A stretch of DNA of 34,891 bases from Candidatus Uhrbacteria bacterium (GTDB lineage: Bacteria > Patescibacteriota > Patescibacteriia > UBA9934 > GWF2-40-263). Below are positions 10,881 through 31,789 of the stretch, piece after piece (within the stretch, counting starts at the first letter, position 1; the number at the start of each line of letters is the position of its first letter). The notes beneath the pieces are model-generated. The model was not told the origin of the DNA and ran no database searches. It worked only from the letters and a program-made list of their open reading frames with translations. The DNA is taken from the NCBI GenBank assembly GCA_016209325.1, contig JACQWJ010000035.1:1-34891 (forward strand). Direction: 5' to 3'. Both the position numbers and the translations under genes were made by a program.

Positions 10881-12488
10881 ATGCATAAGATGTTCTTGAA
10901 GCTCGCTGTCATGTTTGTGTTATGCGTGCAAATAGTTCCATTGAAAGCACTCGCCGATGAGATTGTCACACCGACCACCACACCGGAAGTCGTTGTCGAC
11001 GTTGTCCCAGCCGTCACACAGGAAACGATTCCGGAGACCCTTTCTGTGGAGGGTGTTGTGCCTCCAGTCGTCCAGCACATCACACCAGACCTCGTTCCCG
11101 TCACGGAGGATTCCACTCCCGTTCCTGTCGCGGAAACGGAATCCGTCACCGACGACGAGGAACCCTCTGATCCAAGGATCGAGGAAACCACAAAAGACTT
11201 CACAAACATCATCCCTCAGACCACCGAGTACACCTGTGGTCCTGCCGCGCTTGCCACACTCATCCTTCAAAAGGGTGGGGCGGCGGGAGACGAGATGGCT
11301 ATTGTCGAGCTGTCTCAGACGACCGAGGAGTATGGAACAACACTGCTTGGACTCAAGAAGGCCGCGAGCTCGCTCGGCTACGACGTGAAGATGAAGCGCT
11401 GGAGTCTGCCTGCTCTGAAAATCGCAACACTTCCCGTCCTTGTAAATGACAAAGCCCCAGATGGCTCTGCCCATTACTCCGTAGTCGTCGCGTTCACGGA
11501 CTCCACGGTCAAACTCGCCGATACAAAGCTTGGCAACATCGAGCTCGATATCGACGACTTCGAGAAGTCCTACACCGGAACCACACTCACCATCACCCCA
11601 AAGAAAACCGTCACAGACGGCATGAGCATCGAAGCAGTTGCCAACATCCTCGACGCGAACCCGTCTGAGGTCATCGCATTCGATCAAGATGGCAACGTGA
11701 TCCCCGTCGATCAACTCGATGATGTATACGATGACGAGGCTTCGACGGTGACGGGGAAAGGAGGCGTCTCCTCGGTCGAGATCAGTGTCAAATCACTTTC
11801 AAAGACAATGCGCGTCGCTTTTGAAGCACTCGGGGTCAACACCATTTCCGCTGTTGTCACCGCAAGTGGTCAGGTCACGGCGATTTCAGGCATGAGTACC
11901 GCCATGCGAGCACTCGTAAAAACAATCATCGGCCCCCTGTACGACGCGATCCAACTCCTCGTCCAAAAGGAGATGTGGACGGCGGGAGCTGCCTTGCTGA
12001 ATAAAAATCGTCCGATCTCTTCGGCTTTGATGCTCCATGCATTGAAGCTCAATCCAAAAAACATCAAGATTACGGAGAAGAACCAGGGATCGTATGGGAA
12101 TGTGGTGGACGAAATTAAGGGATCACAGATCTTTAAGGATTGCCTTAAATCGGCCACCAGTAATGCTAAAAAGACGAATGCAAAATCTTTCGATGTGACG
12201 GTATGTCCTGATAAAAATGGAAAAACAATAGATGGGATCGAGTTTATAAAAAATGACAATAAAGATCTCTATACATCTATCAAAACCGCTGATATTCGTA
12301 TCATAGGAACACAAAAAAATGGCACATGGAATTTGACTGTAAAAATATCTGATCTATACAATTTTGAACTACATAACTATGACATAAACAATTGGGCATC
12401 ATGGGCAAACAATGCAGCTGTGGTGAGTCTGTTCCTCGGGGTCATCACCAAGTATGACGTGGTCATCTCATTTGACACTACGCGTTAA
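10881..12488 (+). CDS. Secreted C39-like cysteine peptidase with AT-rich C-terminal module (toxin candidate)
   Basis: A 535-residue protein. A signal peptide (residues 1-25, cut after ALA) is followed by a Thr/Pro/Val/Glu-rich linker to about 105. A C39-type papain-fold peptidase follows at about 109-240, with oxyanion Gln113, Cys119 in YTCGPAAL, His198 in SAHYSV and Asp214 in LADTKLG, so it looks active. Residues 240-370 hold a region with DQDGNVIPVDQ and a helical part. From about residue 370 (nt 11990 on) the DNA becomes AT-rich with A-ending codons, and the protein changes to a Lys/Asn-rich module ending YDVVISFDTTR. This composition shift inside one gene is typical of polymorphic toxins with exchangeable C-terminal effectors. 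The next gene, 12 nt downstream, is equally AT-rich and could be its immunity protein. Confidence 0.75.
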   Translation: MHKMFLKLAVMFVLCVQIVPLKALADEIVTPTTTPEVVVDVVPAVTQETIPETLSVEGVVPPVVQHITPDLVPVTEDSTPVPVAETESVTDDEEPSDPRIEETTKDFTNIIPQTTEYTCGPAALATLILQKGGAAGDEMAIVELSQTTEEYGTTLLGLKKAASSLGYDVKMKRWSLPALKIATLPVLVNDKAPDGSAHYSVVVAFTDSTVKLADTKLGNIELDIDDFEKSYTGTTLTITPKKTVTDGMSIEAVANILDANPSEVIAFDQDGNVIPVDQLDDVYDDEASTVTGKGGVSSVEISVKSLSKTMRVAFEALGVNTISAVVTASGQVTAISGMSTAMRALVKTIIGPLYDAIQLLVQKEMWTAGAALLNKNRPISSALMLHALKLNPKNIKITEKNQGSYGNVVDEIKGSQIFKDCLKSATSNAKKTNAKSFDVTVCPDKNGKTIDGIEFIKNDNKDLYTSIKTADIRIIGTQKNGTWNLTVKISDLYNFELHNYDINNWASWANNAAVVSLFLGVITKYDVVISFDTTR

Positions 12489-13228: not shown

Positions 13229-13843
13229 ATGCCTTCCCATCCCTTGAACATCCGCTCCCAGTTCCTCATCCCGACGGTCATCGAGAAGACCCACTACGGC
13301 GAGCGAGCCTACGATATTTACTCACGCCTCTTGAAGGATCGCATCATCTTTCTTGGTACGGAGATCGACGATGGGGTGGCAAACACGGTCATCGCCCAGT
13401 TTCTCTTTCTCGAAAGCCAGGACAAGACGAAGGACATCAAGCTTTATGTGAACTCTCCCGGCGGCTCGGTCACGGCCGGGCTCGCGATCTACGACGCCAT
13501 GCAGTACGTGCAGCCCGACGTCTCGACCATCTGCATCGGCATGGCGGCCTCCATGGGGGCGGTGCTCCTTGCCGCCGGCGCCAAGGGTAAGCGCTTCGCT
13601 CTGCCGCATTCCGAGATCATGATCCACCAGGTCCTCGGCGGCGTGCAGGGGCAGGCGACCGACATCAAGATCCACGCCGAGCGCATCTTCAAGATGAAGG
13701 ACAGCCTGAACACCATCCTTGCGCACCACACGGGCCAATCAAAGGAAAAAGTCGAAAAGGACACGGACCGCGACTACTTCCTCGATGCCGAAGACGCGGT
13801 CACTTACGGCCTCATCGACAAGATGATCGAGAAGACCTCCTGA
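13229..13843 (+). CDS. clpP: ATP-dependent Clp protease proteolytic subunit
   Basis: A 204-residue serine peptidase that forms the tetradecameric barrel fed by ClpX or ClpC. The catalytic triad is visible: Ser108 in GMAASMGA, His133 in MIHQV and Asp182 in DRDYF. The substrate-binding strand [15 protein letters not shown] and the N-terminal loop region ([23 protein letters not shown]) are typical. Length is normal. It follows the AT-rich cassette, and the base composition returns to GC-rich here. A clean terminator follows. Confidence 0.97.
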
Positions 13844-16536: not shown

Positions 16537-17529
16537 ATGGGCAGGGAATCTGCGGCACGCGCATACCCTTCATCTCCGGAACGCGACTTTGGTTCAAACC
16601 AGGGCCCGGAAGACGGACGCCAGCCGAGACCTGAGCTGCGGCTCGCCTCGTTCAATCCGGATATCCCGGCCTCCACTTCCGAGCGGCGCGGGGACCGTCC
16701 GGCGCCCCGCGAACTTTTGGATATGGAACGCGTACGGCCGGAGCCCGAGCCCGCGTCTGAACCCGTGGACGGGGTTCCGATCGCGCGCGAGCAGATGCGT
16801 TTTGCCGAGACGGACGACGCGGAAATTTTGGCCCCCATGGAGCGTCAGCTCGAAGAGTTCAACCGGCGCATTGCCAACCTTCGGCCAGTAAAACCGTCCT
16901 CGCGCGTTTCCGGGTGGATAAGCGGCTTAAAGAAACAGGCTGCGGTCATCTTGTCCTTTTCCAAACACGCAGGAGATCCTCTTTCTGAATTGCAGCAGCG
17001 GCGTGACATCCTTCAGGGAAGGATTACGCGCATACAAGAGAGCCGTAAGCGATTTAACGAGGAAATACAGCGGCCCGTCCTCGGGTCCAAATCCGTCGAG
17101 GTGTCTCCCCGTAACCGCGCGGATCAGATGGAAAAGGAGGCACGCATGTTGGAAGACGAGCTCCGAGAAGCCAAGGGGCGCGCCATGGGCCCCTACGGCG
17201 AGCGTCCGGACGACGCCGAGCGCGACCGGCGCAATACGGTCGCAAGCGCGACCTATACGGAACGCGATGCCGTCCGGCGCGAGCTCGCCACTGTCTCCGA
17301 TCTCGCTGAGCGCACGCGTCTAGAAAATTCCACTGCAAGACTGGAGGCGGAATTCCAGGAGAACATTTCCCAGCGCGATCGCACGGCCACGGACCACGTC
17401 CGTACGGGGCGCGCCAGTCGCTTTCAGGCCGTGAACACCGTCTTTAACCGCCTGGTCGACGTGCGCCGCCGTATTGCGGACGCTCGGGCTGCCACACGTG
17501 AGGAGACGGAAAGGAAAAAGGCGGCCTAA
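16537..17529 (+). CDS. Unknown charged coiled-coil protein
   Basis: A protein of 330 residues that I do not recognise. There is no signal peptide; one mildly hydrophobic patch (KKQAAVILSFS) lies near residue 135. Residues 1-85 are Pro/Arg/Glu-rich and disordered in appearance. From about 100 on there are long charged helices (MERQLEEFNRRIANL, then LQQRRDILQGRITRIQESRKRF, then EARMLEDELREAK and later segments). The helix-basic hydrophobic linker-helix pattern resembles the repeats of the following 1210-residue protein, so the two may be related and act together. It has its own strong promoter and no Shine-Dalgarno sequence. Confidence 0.72.
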   Translation: MGRESAARAYPSSPERDFGSNQGPEDGRQPRPELRLASFNPDIPASTSERRGDRPAPRELLDMERVRPEPEPASEPVDGVPIAREQMRFAETDDAEILAPMERQLEEFNRRIANLRPVKPSSRVSGWISGLKKQAAVILSFSKHAGDPLSELQQRRDILQGRITRIQESRKRFNEEIQRPVLGSKSVEVSPRNRADQMEKEARMLEDELREAKGRAMGPYGERPDDAERDRRNTVASATYTERDAVRRELATVSDLAERTRLENSTARLEAEFQENISQRDRTATDHVRTGRASRFQAVNTVFNRLVDVRRRIADARAATREETERKKAA

Positions 17530-17550
17530 AGCTAAAGCCCCCTTTGTCTT

Positions 17551-17579
17551 TTGGAGACAATCGGGAAGTAGGGTAAAAT
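17551..17579 (+). promoter_or_regulatory. Promoter of the large repeat protein gene
   Basis: TTGGAG (17551-17556), 17 bases, TAAAAT (17574-17579). The start point is near 17586, leaving a 29-nt leader. A small dyad, TTGTCT-TTTGG-AGACAA (17545-17561), covers the -35 box. Confidence 0.55.
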
Positions 17580-17614
17580 GGCATCAATTATTTTCAACCC
17601 CTTATCTTTTTGCT

Positions 17615-20600
17615 ATGCCAGGTCGAGGTGAAAGGTCATCTGCGGAACGCTTGGAAGACTTCGGTCCGAGTTTGCAAGTCGAGACGGAGGGCGAACAGGT
17701 TCGGGATACGACATCAGAAGAAGAAGGAGAGAATGCCATCGATCTTTTCGGGCTCCGAGAAGACAACGAGGTCGTCATGGGGGATAGAGAAAGTGCACGT
17801 GGTAACGTGCTTAGTATAGACCGGGCGAAGCGGGTGGCCGATGCCGGGCTGCATCTCGCCCCTGAACGGGCTTCCCGAATTGGCGAGGACGTCGTACAGA
17901 ACGAGAACACCTTCGCCAGCGCGCTGGAAACGCGCTTGGCGAGGCAGTTGTCCTTGGACGCGCGTCGTCAGTACGCCCAAACCCGCGCGCGGCTTATTCA
18001 GGAAGCGCGAGAGGATTTGGAAACGGTCAAGGAAGGGCTTGCCGAATTTTCTTCCAAGGAAAAGGCCGACATCCTCAGACGCTACCACGCCACCATCGAT
18101 TATAATCGCCGCCTGAAGGAGAAGATCAAATCTTCCCCCTTTGAGCAGAAGTTCAACGACGATCGAAGCCTTAGGGTTAGGGACCAAGAGCTTGCCCGCT
18201 TTGTGCAGGAGAACCCCGTGGAACCCGATACGCTGGTTCAGCAGGCGCGGGACGGGAGATTCGTGGTTCTAAGAGCCCGCAAGCGCCAGCTTGAGGACGT
18301 CGTTGCCCACGGCCCTTCAAAGATCGCCGTTTTGGAAGCGTCTCATCGTTTATCGGAGAAAAGGCAAGCGGAACTTCGTCTGGATAACCAGCCGACAGAC
18401 GGCGGGGCAGAGGATTCGCAGAGAATTACGAAACTGGAAGCCCAGATCGCCCTGGTTCAAGAACAGATCCGCGGAGGAAAGGAAGCGGGCCTGGGTCATA
18501 CGGAGATTTCGAACCTCGAACGTCAGCTGCAGACCCTCCGCGAGCTCGGAACAAGTGGTTCGAGCAATGGGCGCTCGTCTGGACAGGGCGGGTCCGAGCG
18601 GGTGCCTACCGAAGCTGATGAGGAGTTATCCGGGAACTTGCTGTTGGAAGAAGATGAACCTGTCGTTTCGATTCCTCAGCCGGACGTCGTCGCGCCAGCG
18701 CCTGACCAGCAAGTTGAACAGTCTCGCGCCGGTTTTGCGCAGGCATATGAGGCTTTGCGCGTTCAGACCGTAGATGGCACCCTCGAGGCTTACCTTCAGG
18801 AGAAATCGGCCGAGGGTGGGTTGAGTCCTGTGGAAACGGCTGCACTTCTACGCTTGACGGGTGATGCGTCTTTGTCTCAGGAAGTTCGAACACGTCTTGT
18901 CAGCCGGGATACGGCCATCGCTTTGTTGGACGTGCTGCAGGCATTCCTTAGAGAGCGGCCTGGGTCCAATTATTTGCATTTGGTCAACAGCATCGAGCGG
19001 GCGGCCCTTCCGTCGCATTTTCGGACCGAAGACCGGCGTCGTATCGCCCATGAGCTAGCGCTTGGGATCGACGCGCTGCGGGACGGCGGGGTGTACGACC
19101 AGATCCCGGCGGCGGTCGCGCGGGAATTCGATGAGCTGCGCCAGGCGTTCGAGCCCACCGGAGAGCAGCGGCGCGAATACCCCGTTCTCGAGCACTGGGG
19201 AAAGCACGTGGCCGAGAAGGACTATGGCCGCTTCATGCGGGCCATGGAGGATCTCGCCTCGCTCAAGGCGTTCGCAGATCAGATCGACGTTTTGCCCCTT
19301 TCCGTTCTTAAGGACAAGCTGCGCGCCTACCAGCCGGTGTTTGGCGTCTTAGGCGTGGATACCGCCCGCCTTCTGCGGCAAACGGACAAGGACCGGTCTC
19401 GCGTGCGTCTGGAACTCTTCAACCGCATCAGCCCGTTCCTCATGGAGGCCGCGGGCCGGGTCGTGGCCAACCGGGCGCAGCTTGAGCAGGAACGTCAGCC
19501 TAAGCCGGAATTGCAATTTTTGCAATTCCAAAAGGTTGCTCGAGACCTTGAGCAGCTCACGACCGCCGCCGCCAATACTCCTACTAAGAAGGACGTCGCT
19601 TTCGCACGCGGCAAATCCGTGCAAGAGTTGACTCCGGAGGAAATCGACGCTCCCCCCTCTTTCACTTTTGACCCAGAGCGCGGCCTTCAGGCCGTTGAAC
19701 CGGAGGTTGTGGCATCAACCACTGAGGACGAAGCGCCCGCGGAATTCCTTTACGACGAAAGGGTGGGAGCGGACGCTGAGCCGCCGCGTGCGTCGGTGAC
19801 GAAAGCGACTGATGGTGTGATGGGAGAGAATGCTGTTTCGGAATTTACGCTTGCATCTTCCCATGAATCTCTTGATATTTCGGAGGACGAAGAGGATGCG
19901 CCTCCCGCCGCTTCGGTTTCCCGACAAGACTCGGATTTTATAGAGACCGGCAGGTCTCCGCGTGACGTGACGGCGGAGCTTCGCCGGAGCGTTAAGCGTT
20001 ACGGCCGGCAGATCGACGATCTCCAGGTGCAGCTTAAGCTTCCACGCTGGAAGCGCACCGGCGTTGACGTCCTTCTTGGACGTGATACGGCGCCTCTTTG
20101 GAAGCGCGATCTACTGCCTCCTTCGGATAATGCGCTGAATGTGGAGATTCGTCGCTTGACGAACTTGCGCGGGATCGACCAGCGCGGCCTGCGTCCGCGC
20201 GAGGCTGCGGTACCCGTCACACAGGCGTTGGAGGCCGTCCTGCACCGTGCACGGGCCGAGCCCGTTTCGTTCGTCGACACTGCAGAACAGGTACGTGCGG
20301 AATTGCGTGTGGCAGACCATGTGGGCTCGTTCATCGACGCCTCCGAACAGCCGGCGGCGGCCGCTTCCGAGCACACCGCCCCGGCCGCGTCCGAGGATCT
20401 GCCTATGGCTGCGACTGTCGAGGTGAATATCCCCGCCGGGCTCATCCCGTCCACCGTCGGTCCCGCACCGGCCCCGGAACTGCTTGACGCGCATACCCGT
20501 CAGCTGCTCGAAGGCCTCGCGCGTACGACCAGGCAGATTCGCGATTTGGAGAGGGAGCTTGGCCTTCCGCGACGCAAACGCGATTCCATCGACACCGTGC

Positions 20601-21247
20601 TGGGCGTCGCTCCTGTTTCGCGTTGGAAGCGGCTCATTGAGCTGCCTCCGAGCGACGAGACCCTGCGCGATCGGATCGTGCACCTGAAACGTCTGCGTGC
20701 CATGGATCAGCGCGGCTTGGAAAGCCGGCGGAACACCGCGCCGCTTCCGTCCGTTCAAGAGCGTGTGGACAGCGCCCCGCGTCGCGCGCGCGCCGAAGCG
20801 GTTCCGTCCCCCGATGCCGCGCAGGTGGCGCGCGCGGAAATGCGCGCGGCCGATCGTGTCGGCTCTTCCATCGACGCCCCCGCCGCTCCCGAGCGGACCG
20901 CCCCGCCTTCGCTTGAAGGCCCACCGGCCGCGTCGACCATCGAGATGGACATCCCCCAGGTGTCCGAGGCCGCTCCCAGCCTGACGCCCGAGCAGCAACG
21001 TCTGCAGGATGAGATTGCCAGCATCGAGAACGAGCTCAGGGACGTGGTGGCCAAGCAGACTTGGAAAACATCCCAGAGAGCGCTTCCGTTCTACCGCCGC
21101 GACCTGCGTATGCTGACCGCTCCCTCCGATGTCAGGCTGCAGGAGGACCTGGAGAGTTTGCGGACGAGCCTGCGGCTCAAGACACGCACGCTTGAGACCG
21201 TGCGTCAGCTCGCCCGCGGCAGCTCCGAGACGCACGCAGTCACCTAA
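17615..21247 (+). CDS. Large cytoplasmic repeat/coiled-coil protein of unknown function
   Basis: A 1210-residue protein without signal peptide or membrane segment. An acidic N-terminus leads to charged helices at about 80-340 with a Gly/Ser-rich break (TSGSSNGRSSGQGG). A helical domain lies at about 375-690 and a Glu/Pro-rich linker at about 700-780. Then come two long tandem repeats of about 155 residues and one shorter partial copy. Each repeat starts with a helix ending in LPRWKR or LPRRKR, goes on to LPPSD and RLTNLR or HLKRLR, DQRGL, and in the full copies ARAE, GSSIDA and a Pro/Ala/Ser linker ending in NIP or DIP. No enzyme motif is visible, so a scaffold or filament role is only a guess. 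The ATG at 17615 follows the promoter; upstream codons overlap the previous gene. Confidence 0.75.
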   Translation: MPGRGERSSAERLEDFGPSLQVETEGEQVRDTTSEEEGENAIDLFGLREDNEVVMGDRESARGNVLSIDRAKRVADAGLHLAPERASRIGEDVVQNENTFASALETRLARQLSLDARRQYAQTRARLIQEAREDLETVKEGLAEFSSKEKADILRRYHATIDYNRRLKEKIKSSPFEQKFNDDRSLRVRDQELARFVQENPVEPDTLVQQARDGRFVVLRARKRQLEDVVAHGPSKIAVLEASHRLSEKRQAELRLDNQPTDGGAEDSQRITKLEAQIALVQEQIRGGKEAGLGHTEISNLERQLQTLRELGTSGSSNGRSSGQGGSERVPTEADEELSGNLLLEEDEPVVSIPQPDVVAPAPDQQVEQSRAGFAQAYEALRVQTVDGTLEAYLQEKSAEGGLSPVETAALLRLTGDASLSQEVRTRLVSRDTAIALLDVLQAFLRERPGSNYLHLVNSIERAALPSHFRTEDRRRIAHELALGIDALRDGGVYDQIPAAVAREFDELRQAFEPTGEQRREYPVLEHWGKHVAEKDYGRFMRAMEDLASLKAFADQIDVLPLSVLKDKLRAYQPVFGVLGVDTARLLRQTDKDRSRVRLELFNRISPFLMEAAGRVVANRAQLEQERQPKPELQFLQFQKVARDLEQLTTAAANTPTKKDVAFARGKSVQELTPEEIDAPPSFTFDPERGLQAVEPEVVASTTEDEAPAEFLYDERVGADAEPPRASVTKATDGVMGENAVSEFTLASSHESLDISEDEEDAPPAASVSRQDSDFIETGRSPRDVTAELRRSVKRYGRQIDDLQVQLKLPRWKRTGVDVLLGRDTAPLWKRDLLPPSDNALNVEIRRLTNLRGIDQRGLRPREAAVPVTQALEAVLHRARAEPVSFVDTAEQVRAELRVADHVGSFIDASEQPAAAASEHTAPAASEDLPMAATVEVNIPAGLIPSTVGPAPAPELLDAHTRQLLEGLARTTRQIRDLERELGLPRRKRDSIDTVLGVAPVSRWKRLIELPPSDETLRDRIVHLKRLRAMDQRGLESRRNTAPLPSVQERVDSAPRRARAEAVPSPDAAQVARAEMRAADRVGSSIDAPAAPERTAPPSLEGPPAASTIEMDIPQVSEAAPSLTPEQQRLQDEIASIENELRDVVAKQTWKTSQRALPFYRRDLRMLTAPSDVRLQEDLESLRTSLRLKTRTLETVRQLARGSSETHAVT
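19969..21230 (+). repeat. Coding tandem repeats of about 155 residues
   Basis: Copy 1 covers about 19969-20434, copy 2 about 20494-20959, and a partial copy 3 about 20995-21230. Shared landmarks in order are the WKR/RKR linker, LPPSD, DQRGL, RARAE, and DHVGSFIDA or DRVGSSIDA. The DNA copies differ at many third positions, so the duplication is not recent. Confidence 0.7.
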
Positions 21248-28256: not shown

Positions 28257-29426
28257 CTAGGACGCGGCCGGTTCCGCAGGGACGGAGGCCGGTTCCGCCT
28301 TGGATCCCGTCGATTCGCTAAGCGCCTTGATCGACAGGCCGAGTCGGTGCTCCCGGGGCTCGATCGAGACGATCTTGAAATCAAGGACGTCGCCGGGCTT
28401 GGCGATCGTGTGCACGTCAGCCACCGGTTTTGCCGACAGCTCCGAGACGTGCGCCAGGCCGTGGATTTCCGGGTCGAGTTCCACGAAGAATCCGAACGGG
28501 TTGATTTTCAGCACCTTACCCTGGACCGTCTCGCCCACTTGGTACTTCTCCTGCACGCCGGTCCAGGGGTCCTGGATGAGCTTCTTCATGGAGAGGAAGA
28601 TCTTGCTTCCCTCAATGCCGATGATCTCCGCCTTGGCCTGGTCCCCCACCTTGAGCAGGTCGCGGGGATGGTCGATGCGCTGCCAGGCGATCTCGCTGAT
28701 GTGGACCAACCCTTCGAGCGATTCAAACTTAATGAAGGCACCAAAGTCGGCGAGCGCCGTCACATCCCCCTCCACCCTGTCGCCCACCTTGAAGCGGGAG
28801 ATGATGTCCTTCTGGCGCTCCTCCCAGACCGCTTTCTCGGAAACGATAAGTTTGTTCTCGCGCTCGTTCACGTCGATGACCCGCACGTCCATGGACTCGT
28901 CGACGTAGCTCTTCAGCTTCTCGAGGATTTTGTTCTTGTCACCGCCCGTCACGCGCGGGTAGTGGTCGGGAGACAGCTGGGACACAGGCAGGAATCCGAC
29001 GATGTGACTCACTTGCACGATAAGGCCTCCCTTGTTGGCCTCGAGGATCTTCACAGGAACCGTCTCGCCGCTCGCGAAGAATCCCTGGAGGTCTGCCCAG
29101 GCGCGCTGCTGGCCCGCAAAGCGGAACGACAGCTCCATCTCGCCATGCTCGTTCTCGAGATCGATCACGGTCGCCTCCACCTCGTCGCCGTCCTTGAGTT
29201 CCTTGTACAGGGCCGATTCCGCAAACAGCTCGCGTCCGCGCACAACGCCTGTCGTCACGCCTTCGAGGTCAATCCGTACCTCGCGGCGGCTGGAAGAAAT
29301 GATCTTTCCAGTCACGGCATCCCCGACTTTTGGGATCTTGAGGCCGCTTTCGGCGAGGAGTTTCCCAAACGCTGTGTCTTCCTTTAGGTTCTTTTGCTGC
29401 TTTTTGGAGGCTGACTTGGAGGCCAT
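28257..29426 (-). CDS. rpsA: S1-domain RNA-binding protein (30S ribosomal protein S1-like)
   Basis: A 389-residue protein with four S1 domains. Their landmarks are VGDAVTGKIISSSRREVRIDLEG, then GETVPVKILEANKGGLIVQV, VGDRVEGDVTALADFGAFIKF with GLVHISEIAWQRIDHP, and VGETVQGKVLKINPFGFFVELD with GLAHVSELS. The last two are the most typical. S1 helps mRNAs bind the ribosome; a four-domain form is common in Gram-positives and candidate phyla. A Lys-rich N-terminus and an Ala/Glu/Pro tail flank the domains. The ATG at 29426 is preferred over an upstream in-frame ATG at 29462, which would add a Cys/His-rich stretch. With few Shine-Dalgarno sites around, S1 may matter more here. Confidence 0.93.
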   Translation of the reverse strand: MASKSASKKQQKNLKEDTAFGKLLAESGLKIPKVGDAVTGKIISSSRREVRIDLEGVTTGVVRGRELFAESALYKELKDGDEVEATVIDLENEHGEMELSFRFAGQQRAWADLQGFFASGETVPVKILEANKGGLIVQVSHIVGFLPVSQLSPDHYPRVTGGDKNKILEKLKSYVDESMDVRVIDVNERENKLIVSEKAVWEERQKDIISRFKVGDRVEGDVTALADFGAFIKFESLEGLVHISEIAWQRIDHPRDLLKVGDQAKAEIIGIEGSKIFLSMKKLIQDPWTGVQEKYQVGETVQGKVLKINPFGFFVELDPEIHGLAHVSELSAKPVADVHTIAKPGDVLDFKIVSIEPREHRLGLSIKALSESTGSKAEPASVPAEPAAS

Positions 29427-29506
29427 AGAAGGCAATGTCCGGCAGGCGAAAGCGTGGCACAACAGCGACGCATGGCCCGACGGGGCTAGGGGATAAAAGT
29501 GAGGAG

Positions 29507-29617: not shown

Positions 29618-29765
29618 GGAAATGGAGGTTTCCACGAAAGTAGGGATGCATCGTGATTTCGCCGTACCGTCTGGGAGCGCCTCGTTCTCCCGTAAGTCGC
29701 CTGAATCGGGCGCAACTCCCCCGTCCCGCCTTGGCGCTTTGCCGGGCGGTAACGGAGGAAATGCC

Positions 29766-30131
29766 ATGCAGACCACCAACCTTTCGTTCGATAGTTCGTC
29801 CTCTTTTTCCATCCACTGCGGTTTCGGAGGCTGTGCCGCTCCCGAGCCGCCGCGGCCCGTCTGGGCACCGAGTGACGTTCCGCTCCCTGAGCAGGACGAC
29901 ACGTTGGTTCCCGACGGATTCCGCTACAACCTCGGCTTCGGGGGCTGCAATGCTCCCGAGGCTCCGCGTCCCCTGTGGGCGCCCGGCTCCTTCCCGTCCG
30001 ATGCGGAAGGGGCGGACGTCCGCGATGGTGGAATCAAATACGATATGGGCTTCGGTGGGTGCAGTGCCCCCGTAAAGCCCCGTCCGATCTGGATGCCCGG
30101 CGTGACCGCCACCCTCGGGTGGTGGTCCTGA
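29766..30131 (+). CDS. Small protein of three exact 38-residue GFGGC repeats (undescribed)
   Basis: A 121-residue protein. GFGGC occurs at residues 19-23, 57-61 and 95-99, and the Trp of the following PRPxWxP at 33, 71 and 109: a strict 38-residue period. The unit is (N/D)(L/M)GFGGC(A/N/S)AP, two variable residues, then PRP, (V/L/I), W, (A/M) and P, joined by acidic linkers. The codons for GFGGC differ at third positions between copies while the residues stay fixed, so the peptide sequence itself is conserved. The start has GGAGGA 6 nt upstream, one of the few strong ribosome sites here. No signal peptide or membrane segment. Cys-bearing repeated cores recall RiPP precursors with several cores, or a small metal- or RNA-binding repeat protein. 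No modifying enzyme lies nearby. Function unknown. Confidence 0.75.
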   Translation: MQTTNLSFDSSSSFSIHCGFGGCAAPEPPRPVWAPSDVPLPEQDDTLVPDGFRYNLGFGGCNAPEAPRPLWAPGSFPSDAEGADVRDGGIKYDMGFGGCSAPVKPRPIWMPGVTATLGWWS

Positions 30132-30236
30132 TCCAGTTGGACTACTCGACTACTCTCTTGCTCCTCTGGCGGAGGCCGGTTCCGCGCCGCTTTATCGCGG
30201 CGCACCAAACGCGTACTTTTTTCCGTTCCGGCCTCG

Positions 30237-30274
30237 ACGACGGCGTGCCCTCTGGCGCCGTCGTTTTTCTTTTT
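30237..30274 (+). terminator. Terminator after the GFGGC repeat gene
   Basis: ACGACGGCG (30237-30245) and CGCCGTCGT (30256-30264), then TTTTCTTTTT. Another hairpin, GCGCCGC/GCGGCGC (about 30184-30203), stands between the stop and this terminator, so the transcript has a structured 3' end. Confidence 0.9.
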
Positions 30275-30288
30275 CTTGGGAACTGTCT

Positions 30289-30440
30289 GGGGGCGAAATA
30301 TGAATAGTGGTCTGCCTGCCGGCAGGCAGGCGAATATGCGAATCCGTCGGCAACCCCTCCTAACCTCCCCTTGGATAAGGGGAGGAAATCGGATCGGAAC
30401 GTGTGTCCCCCTTTCCAAGGGGGACTTACAGGGGGTTGCC
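30289..30440. repeat. Intergenic repeat, copy B: GCGAAT block plus inverted-repeat element
   Basis: The block 30289-30346 matches the GCGAAT blocks at 6398 and 31798, but is interrupted by the 18-bp palindrome CTGCCTGCCGGCAGGCAG (30312-30329). From 30349 to 30440 an inverted-repeat element starts GGCAACCCC and ends GGGGTTGCC; each half contains its own hairpin (CTCCCCTTGG..AAGGGGAG and TCCCCCTTTCCAAGGGGGA). No coding capacity. Confidence 0.65.
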
Positions 30441-30448
30441 GGTGTACC

Positions 30449-30482
30449 AACCAAAAAGACAGGTCTCCCTGTCTTTTTGGTT
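30449..30482 (-). terminator. Terminator after serS
   Basis: AACCAAAAAGACAG (30449-30462) and its complement (30469-30482) form a 14-bp stem with the loop GTCTCC. The serS stop codon touches the stem. Confidence 0.85.
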
Positions 30483-31789
30483 TACTTCTTCTCTATTTCC
30501 AGCTTTTCCTTCCCAACCCAATGGCGAAGCGCTTCCGGAACCATGATCGATCCGTCCGCCTGCTGGTTGTTTTCCATGATGGCGATGAGGGTGCGGCCGA
30601 TCGCGAAGGCGGTGGCGTCGTTTGTGTGGACCAGTTCCACTTCGCCGGAGGCGCGGCGGACGCGCGTGCCGAGGCGGCGGGCTTGGTAGTCGGACATGTA
30701 GTCCGCGGTATGGGTTTCGCGGTAGGTGTTTTGTCCCGGCATCCAGGCCTCGACGTCGTAGCCACTCGCGTTCGGGTTCCCGATGTCGGCCGTGCACTTC
30801 TTGATGACGCGGTAGGGAAGCTTCAGCGACTGCATGAGGTATTCCTGGATGGCGAGGAAAAAGCGGTGTTCGGTTTCGCCATTTTCGGCGGTTACGAACG
30901 ATTCCATTTCGAGCTTGTCGAACTGGTGCATGCGGAGAATGCCCTTCGTGTCCTTGCCGTAGGAGCCGGCCTCGCGGCGGAAGGAGGTGGAGTATCCGAC
31001 GTAACGGATGGGAAGCTCGGCTTCGGGAAGGATCTCGTCCAGGTACATCGAACCGAGCGTGTGTTCCGCGCTTCCCACGAGGTACATGTCGTCCTGCTGG
31101 AGGTAGTAGCGCTCGTCCTTGTCCTCCGGGCTCAGGCGCGCCATCTTCACGAAGACGTCCGGTCGGATCATGACAGGAGGGATAACCGGAACGAACGGCT
31201 TGGCCGAACAGCCGTTTCCAATCTCCTTCGCAATTTCTTCCATGACGCTTGGGGACGTCAGGGTTGAGAAGACATGCTGGATGAGCGCCATCTGCAGAAG
31301 GGCCGCGTCGCCTTTCAGATAGGTGAAGCGCGCGCCCGCGACCTTGGCCGCGCGTTCGGTGTCGATCATGCCAAGTGCCTCGCCGAGGGCGAGGTGGTCC
31401 TTGGGTGCGAAATTAAACGCCGGAATCTCGCCCCAGGTATGCAAGATCTGGTTTTCCGATTCGTCCCTTCCGACGGGAACTTCCGGAAGTGGGATGTTCG
31501 GAACCTTGGAGAGGAGAGGAAGCAATTGTTCCTGCAGTTCCTTCTCTTCCGCTTCAAGCGTCTTGATTTCTTCTTTCAACTGCTTCAACCCCGCGATCAT
31601 GTCCGGGGAAACGGGACCGCCTTTGGACGCCTTGTTCTGTTCAGCACGCTTCTCTTCGACCGCCTGGAGTGCGGACCGGTGCCGTGCCTCGATCTCCACA
31701 ATGGCAGCGACGTCAACGGTTACGTTCTTATCGTGCGCCGCTTTTTGTACCAGTTCCGGATTCTGGAGGATGAATTTGAGATCGAGCAT
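30482..31789 (-). CDS. serS: Seryl-tRNA synthetase
   Basis: A 435-residue class II synthetase that charges tRNA-Ser with serine. The N-terminal antiparallel coiled-coil arm covers about 25-100. Motif 2 is YSTSFRREAGSYGKDTKGILR and motif 3 is near the end at GRTLIAIMENNQQADGSIMVP. PNASGYDVEAWMPGQNTYRE and the DYQARRLGTR segment are typical of bacterial SerRS. No Shine-Dalgarno sequence precedes the ATG; a GCGAAT-type repeat block begins 8 nt upstream, as at rpsP. Confidence 0.97.
   Translation of the reverse strand: MLDLKFILQNPELVQKAAHDKNVTVDVAAIVEIEARHRSALQAVEEKRAEQNKASKGGPVSPDMIAGLKQLKEEIKTLEAEEKELQEQLLPLLSKVPNIPLPEVPVGRDESENQILHTWGEIPAFNFAPKDHLALGEALGMIDTERAAKVAGARFTYLKGDAALLQMALIQHVFSTLTSPSVMEEIAKEIGNGCSAKPFVPVIPPVMIRPDVFVKMARLSPEDKDERYYLQQDDMYLVGSAEHTLGSMYLDEILPEAELPIRYVGYSTSFRREAGSYGKDTKGILRMHQFDKLEMESFVTAENGETEHRFFLAIQEYLMQSLKLPYRVIKKCTADIGNPNASGYDVEAWMPGQNTYRETHTADYMSDYQARRLGTRVRRASGEVELVHTNDATAFAIGRTLIAIMENNQQADGSIMVPEALRHWVGKEKLEIEKK

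Follow-up and report, generated by a model that had tools for sequence, protein, structure and literature searches.

The window analysed here, a 34,891-nucleotide stretch of Candidatus Uhrbacteria DNA, carries at 29766-30131 a small gene whose product repeats a glycine- and proline-rich core three times. This raises the question of whether the repeat is a genuine protein feature and, if so, what such a protein might do. The first-pass annotation of this DNA had described an exact 38-residue period, and this description holds. GFGGC begins at residues 19, 57, and 95, Trp stands at residues 33, 71, and 109, and 12 columns are identical across all three aligned units (GFGGC.AP..PRP.W.P).

Features of the three-unit gene and its flanks

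The features of the locus are as follows.

29751..29760, + strand: Shine-Dalgarno region, cGGAGGaaatgccATG, with GGAGG 7 nt ahead of the ATG (read from the sequence)
29766..30131, + strand: three-unit small protein, 121 aa (from translation; profile homologues in 22/43 genomes of the window's family)
29820..29864, + strand: unit 1 core, GFGGCAAPEPPRPVW, residues 19-33
29934..29978, + strand: unit 2 core, GFGGCNAPEAPRPLW, residues 57-71
30048..30092, + strand: unit 3 core, GFGGCSAPVKPRPIW, residues 95-109
30236..30275, + strand: terminator-like element, a hairpin with an 11-pair stem (30236-30265) followed by a T-rich tail

Two of the three expression signals that had been ascribed to this gene, the Shine-Dalgarno sequence and the terminator, are indeed present, the latter as a terminator-like hairpin with a T run, and the same pair of signals was seen in many homologue ORFs. 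The third, a hairpin upstream of the Shine-Dalgarno sequence, can be drawn but is no stabler than shuffles of its own sequence (z = -0.8). Across the homologues, 5’ structure exceeded that of other genes by a slim margin (p = 0.04), and we rejected this hairpin as a conserved element. Both 5’ and 3’ hairpins are drawable at several homologue loci. Just 3’ of the gene lies a 94-base hairpin repeat with imperfect inverted arms (30348-30441), of which the genome holds roughly 18 other full or partial copies with 83-100% identity, making it MITE-like or REP-like; beside it is a palindrome around CTGCCTGCCGGCAGGCAG (30304-30337).

The annotation had also argued that selection acts on the peptide, since residues are kept while third codon positions vary. 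In the 14-codon core, mismatches at codon positions 1/2/3 numbered 3/1/7, 3/3/10, and 2/3/8 for the three unit pairs, and the corresponding pN/pS values were 0.133/0.583, 0.198/0.857, and 0.196/0.618, i.e. ratios of about 0.23-0.32, with synonymous differences per site three- to fourfold higher. These values agree with the argument. The linker between units is nearly free to change (0.581/0.667 = 0.87). These values are uncorrected, and the core was picked for its conservation, so its ratio describes the constraint rather than tests it; the independent test comes from the homologues.

A lineage-restricted family of single-unit homologues

A profile built from the three window units alone matched 22 of the 43 genomes in the window’s family (E<=0.01), with a best match outside the window of E = 5.8e-9. 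After the profile was rebuilt with 21 and then 28 sequences, 22 of the 43 family genomes matched at E<=1e-4, together with four further genomes from sister families of the order. A genome from a distant family of the class, which had not been used in profile building, was also recovered when 381 genomes sampled from the class were searched (G337, E=1.2e-7). Within a phylum sample of 380 genomes, which served as the negative control, only the window’s own genome matched and none of the other 379 did. No homologues were found in phages and plasmids by tblastn or in viral contigs, and a named-genome scan with the window protein (P0001) gave no match. Genomes without the gene yielded no diverged copies beside ychF, where several contigs end near the locus. 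The gene went undetected in 21 of the 43 family genomes, which indicates that it is dispensable in much of the family.

The homologues are standalone ORFs with a single unit, mostly of 47-95 residues (57-173 in sister-family members), and there is usually one such gene per genome, while G020 carries two separate genes. In G003 (locus L068, around 8211), a motif copy, GGCSAPTRPEPMVVPG, stands right after an in-frame stop and is perhaps a decayed second copy. The C-terminal regions vary widely, being basic in many members and running to 84-135 aa in a few from f3/f4, and for this reason the members may not all have one role.

In keeping with the first-pass annotation, which knew of no family with this unit, the window protein matched nothing in Pfam, NCBIfam, or PHROGs, eight relatives gave nothing above the cut-off in Pfam, and a PDB search with profile A3 returned no significant chain (best E=2.9). 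The C-terminal tail of one relative, outside the motif, has a weak match to phrog_25202 (E=0.00064). Elsewhere in the window, a 1257-aa ORF (17474-21247, + strand) likewise has no Pfam match. Judged against Pfam, NCBIfam, PHROGs, and the PDB, the family is undescribed, and these bacteria commonly carry lineage-restricted families of this kind: a Patescibacteria genome has 62 +/- 30 of the novel (FESNov) gene families described from uncultivated taxa (PMC10849945).

A shared glycine-proline motif

To define what the family shares, we tallied 30 units, three from the window and 27 from 26 other genomes. Their common motif is G-x-G-G-x-x-[A/T]-P-x-x-P-x-P-x-x-x-P, which lies within a 21-residue core (hydrophobic-x-[C/A/hydrophobic]-G-aromatic-G-G-[C/A]-[R/S]-[A/T]-P-x-x-P-x-P-hydrophobic-aromatic-[L/F]-P-[G/S]) whose flanks are variable. 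The three glycines and the first two prolines are invariant over all 30 units, the alanine is kept in 28 and replaced by threonine otherwise, and the subsequent prolines are present in 29 and 25 units, respectively. Softer preferences include a frequent aromatic residue after the first glycine and an aromatic or hydrophobic residue before the last proline, which is then followed by G or S. At most of the invariant positions all four glycine or all four proline codons are in use, and this free synonymous choice indicates that the conservation belongs to the peptide and hence that the sequence is coding.

The Cys, Phe, and Trp of the window units and the Arg of PRP are not conserved among the homologues. 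The Cys following GG is kept in 17 of the 27 homologous units and replaced by A, L, S, F, or G in the other 10, and both Cys of CGxGGC occur in just 11. Thus, the expectation that homologues would keep GFGGC and PRPxW fails when taken literally. What the homologues retain is GxGG, [A/T]P, and the series of prolines, from which it follows that GFGGC and PRPxW are the local version of a broader motif. Taken together, these comparisons give good support to a small-protein family that is real, lineage-restricted, and under peptide-level selection. The notion that the ORF is spurious and the repeat a DNA or RNA feature, to which the drawable hairpins at several loci might lend themselves, can be set aside almost entirely given the kept amino acids with freely varying synonymous codons, the Shine-Dalgarno sequences in many members, and the absence of any Rfam match over the window.

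Genomic context and origin of the triplication

Across genera, the gene recurs at three positions. In 11 genomes it adjoins an O-antigen-ligase/TPR-like gene and/or ychF, in the window and six others it is found with a large surface-protein-like gene and/or serS plus an M23 peptidase gene, and in three sister-family genomes it occupies the uvrA-uvrB interval. Its neighbors are housekeeping genes, the downstream gene varies across homologue loci, and in one genus (g7) it lies in the opposite orientation beside the same neighbors, which argues for action in trans. Its flanking genes in the window are a divergent S1-domain gene (28257-29462, - strand) and a convergent serS, which leaves it standing by itself. 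The recurrent positions, the flipped strand, and the isolated gene with its terminator-like hairpin collectively point to vertical inheritance and action in trans, rather than control of a neighboring gene.

The window’s seryl-tRNA synthetase gene (30482-31789, - strand) itself appears to be an in-place replacement by a foreign copy. Its product shares about 59% identity with a Candidatus Sungbacteria enzyme and only 43-46% with the same-position synthetases of five relatives, which are themselves 61-78% identical to one another.

Three units occur in the window gene only, as every other homologue found has one, including that of G001, a member of the same genus with its gene at the serS-side locus. 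From this distribution, the triplication most likely arose by tandem duplication in the window’s lineage, long enough ago for the linkers to diverge.

A candidate docking motif and its alternatives

Our preferred reading, to which we assign a probability of roughly 45%, is that the window gene belongs, as its triplicated member, to an undescribed, lineage-restricted family of small standalone proteins that act in trans as a linear docking motif. An adaptor recognized three times by one partner was among the roles first suggested for this gene, and it remains the best of them, although we infer it from the conserved core with free linkers, the homologues across genera, and the isolated gene with its terminator-like hairpin. 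The gene would form its own transcription unit and encode a mostly disordered protein, in which a glycine turn followed by an extended proline stretch would serve as a short linear motif, docking in trans on a conserved cellular partner. In the window genome, the ancestral single motif would have been amplified to three with a 38-residue period, and three-site binding could then provide avidity or a scaffold. An AlphaFold model of the window protein as a single sequence was uninformative, with a pLDDT of 32 and values below 50 throughout; this is compatible with disorder, for which a single-sequence model is weak evidence.

In a less probable alternative, which we hold at about a fifth of our belief, the protein would be a small lineage-specific factor in direct contact with the ribosome, RNA polymerase, or nucleic acid, folding upon binding. 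Several single-unit homologues have basic C-termini with net charges of +3 to +8, and Gly/Pro-rich extended segments are suited to insertion into large complexes. However, the window protein is acidic (net charge -6), some homologues are neutral or acidic, the gene is undetected in half of the family, and neither a protein family nor Rfam supplies a match.

More doubtful still is a cut and exported or modified peptide, of the RiPP or double-glycine leader type, whose three cores in the window would be cut at GG|C. GG precedes Cys three times in the window protein, and its genome (G000) encodes two C39 peptidase-domain proteins, one of which lies in the window:

10881..12488, + strand: C39 peptidase-domain protein, 535 aa (by Pfam, C39 found and no ABC transporter domain)

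A short way downstream of this gene is a ClpP gene (13229-13843), and the second C39 protein is on another contig. Across genomes, C39 was present in 4 of 22 carriers of the small gene versus 8 of 21 non-carriers. YcaO was found in only 2 of the 43 family genomes, and among the 25 commonest families per library in a scan of 111 neighbor proteins there was no peptide-modifying or maturation enzyme, radical SAM, YcaO, and LanM included. In double-glycine leaders the -4 position ahead of GG is hydrophobic; here it is held by the Gly that is invariant over all 30 units, and residues of the kind modified in RiPP cores (Cys/Ser/Thr) are not conserved. The multi-core modified peptide proposed at first therefore finds no backing in these surveys. 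The metal-binding repeat proposed alongside it, or a disulfide-forming equivalent, fares worse and seems very unlikely: the 11 homologous units with both CGxGGC Cys are what it can claim, and the GGC Cys is missing from 10 of 27 with the Gly/Pro frame intact.

We give even less credence to a translation-arrest or leader peptide whose RAP sequence would stall ribosomes and regulate a neighboring gene. Arrest peptides of the RAPP type have been described (PMC10951233, PMC7897499), and 17 of the 27 homologous units have Arg-containing RAP or R-T-P-type cores. RAPP stalling, however, needs the Arg, the mutation of which abolishes stalling, as well as Pro or Gly after RAP (PMC10951233), whereas Arg is absent from the other 10 homologous units and all three window units. 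The residue after the motif is usually E, V, or another (AAPE, NAPE, and SAPV in the window), RAPG occurring in one homologue (G072). Moreover, the downstream gene is variable and, in the window, convergent (serS) and beyond the terminator-like hairpin. Separately, mimicry of the FtsZ C-terminal peptide was considered and rejected; of 10 genomes, nine have a canonical FtsZ tail (IPAFIRKKMM or close to it) and one had a tail that was unreadable, and the motif does not share the P-x-aromatic-hydrophobic context of the host tail.

Returning to the docking motif, a bolder and rather improbable version is that GxGGxxAPxxPxPxxxP is a new docking code of this bacterial lineage, presented by a small standalone protein to a single conserved core machine, and that tandem duplication tunes the number of copies. 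Annotation misses small proteins, and here a 21-residue motif is kept in about half of the family genomes and in distant ones. The motif offers a concrete bait for an interaction in hard-to-culture bacteria, and the contrast between one and three units within one genus is a natural test of valency. Should the partner prove dull or strictly local, this would be one of many lineage-specific orphan families.

Comparison with known systems

Like the RAPP arrest peptides ApdA, ApdP, and ApcA (PMC7897499, PMC10951233), the members are short proteins, often with RAP, but they differ in that the Arg is not conserved, Pro or Gly after RAP is missing in nearly all, there is no consistent downstream gene, and the motif is usually N-terminal with more protein after it. 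The C39-processed double-glycine leader peptides also place GG ahead of Cys or a small residue, but Gly stands at -4 here and the gene shows no association with C39 peptidases across genomes. Proline-rich tandem-repeat linear-motif proteins similarly combine repeated Pro-containing cores with variable spacers, but the window core has no match to a Pfam, NCBIfam, or PHROGs family and no significant one to a PDB chain. Finally, FESNov-type families (PMC10849945) are likewise unannotated and lineage-restricted, and what distinguishes the window locus from these is its tandem triplication.
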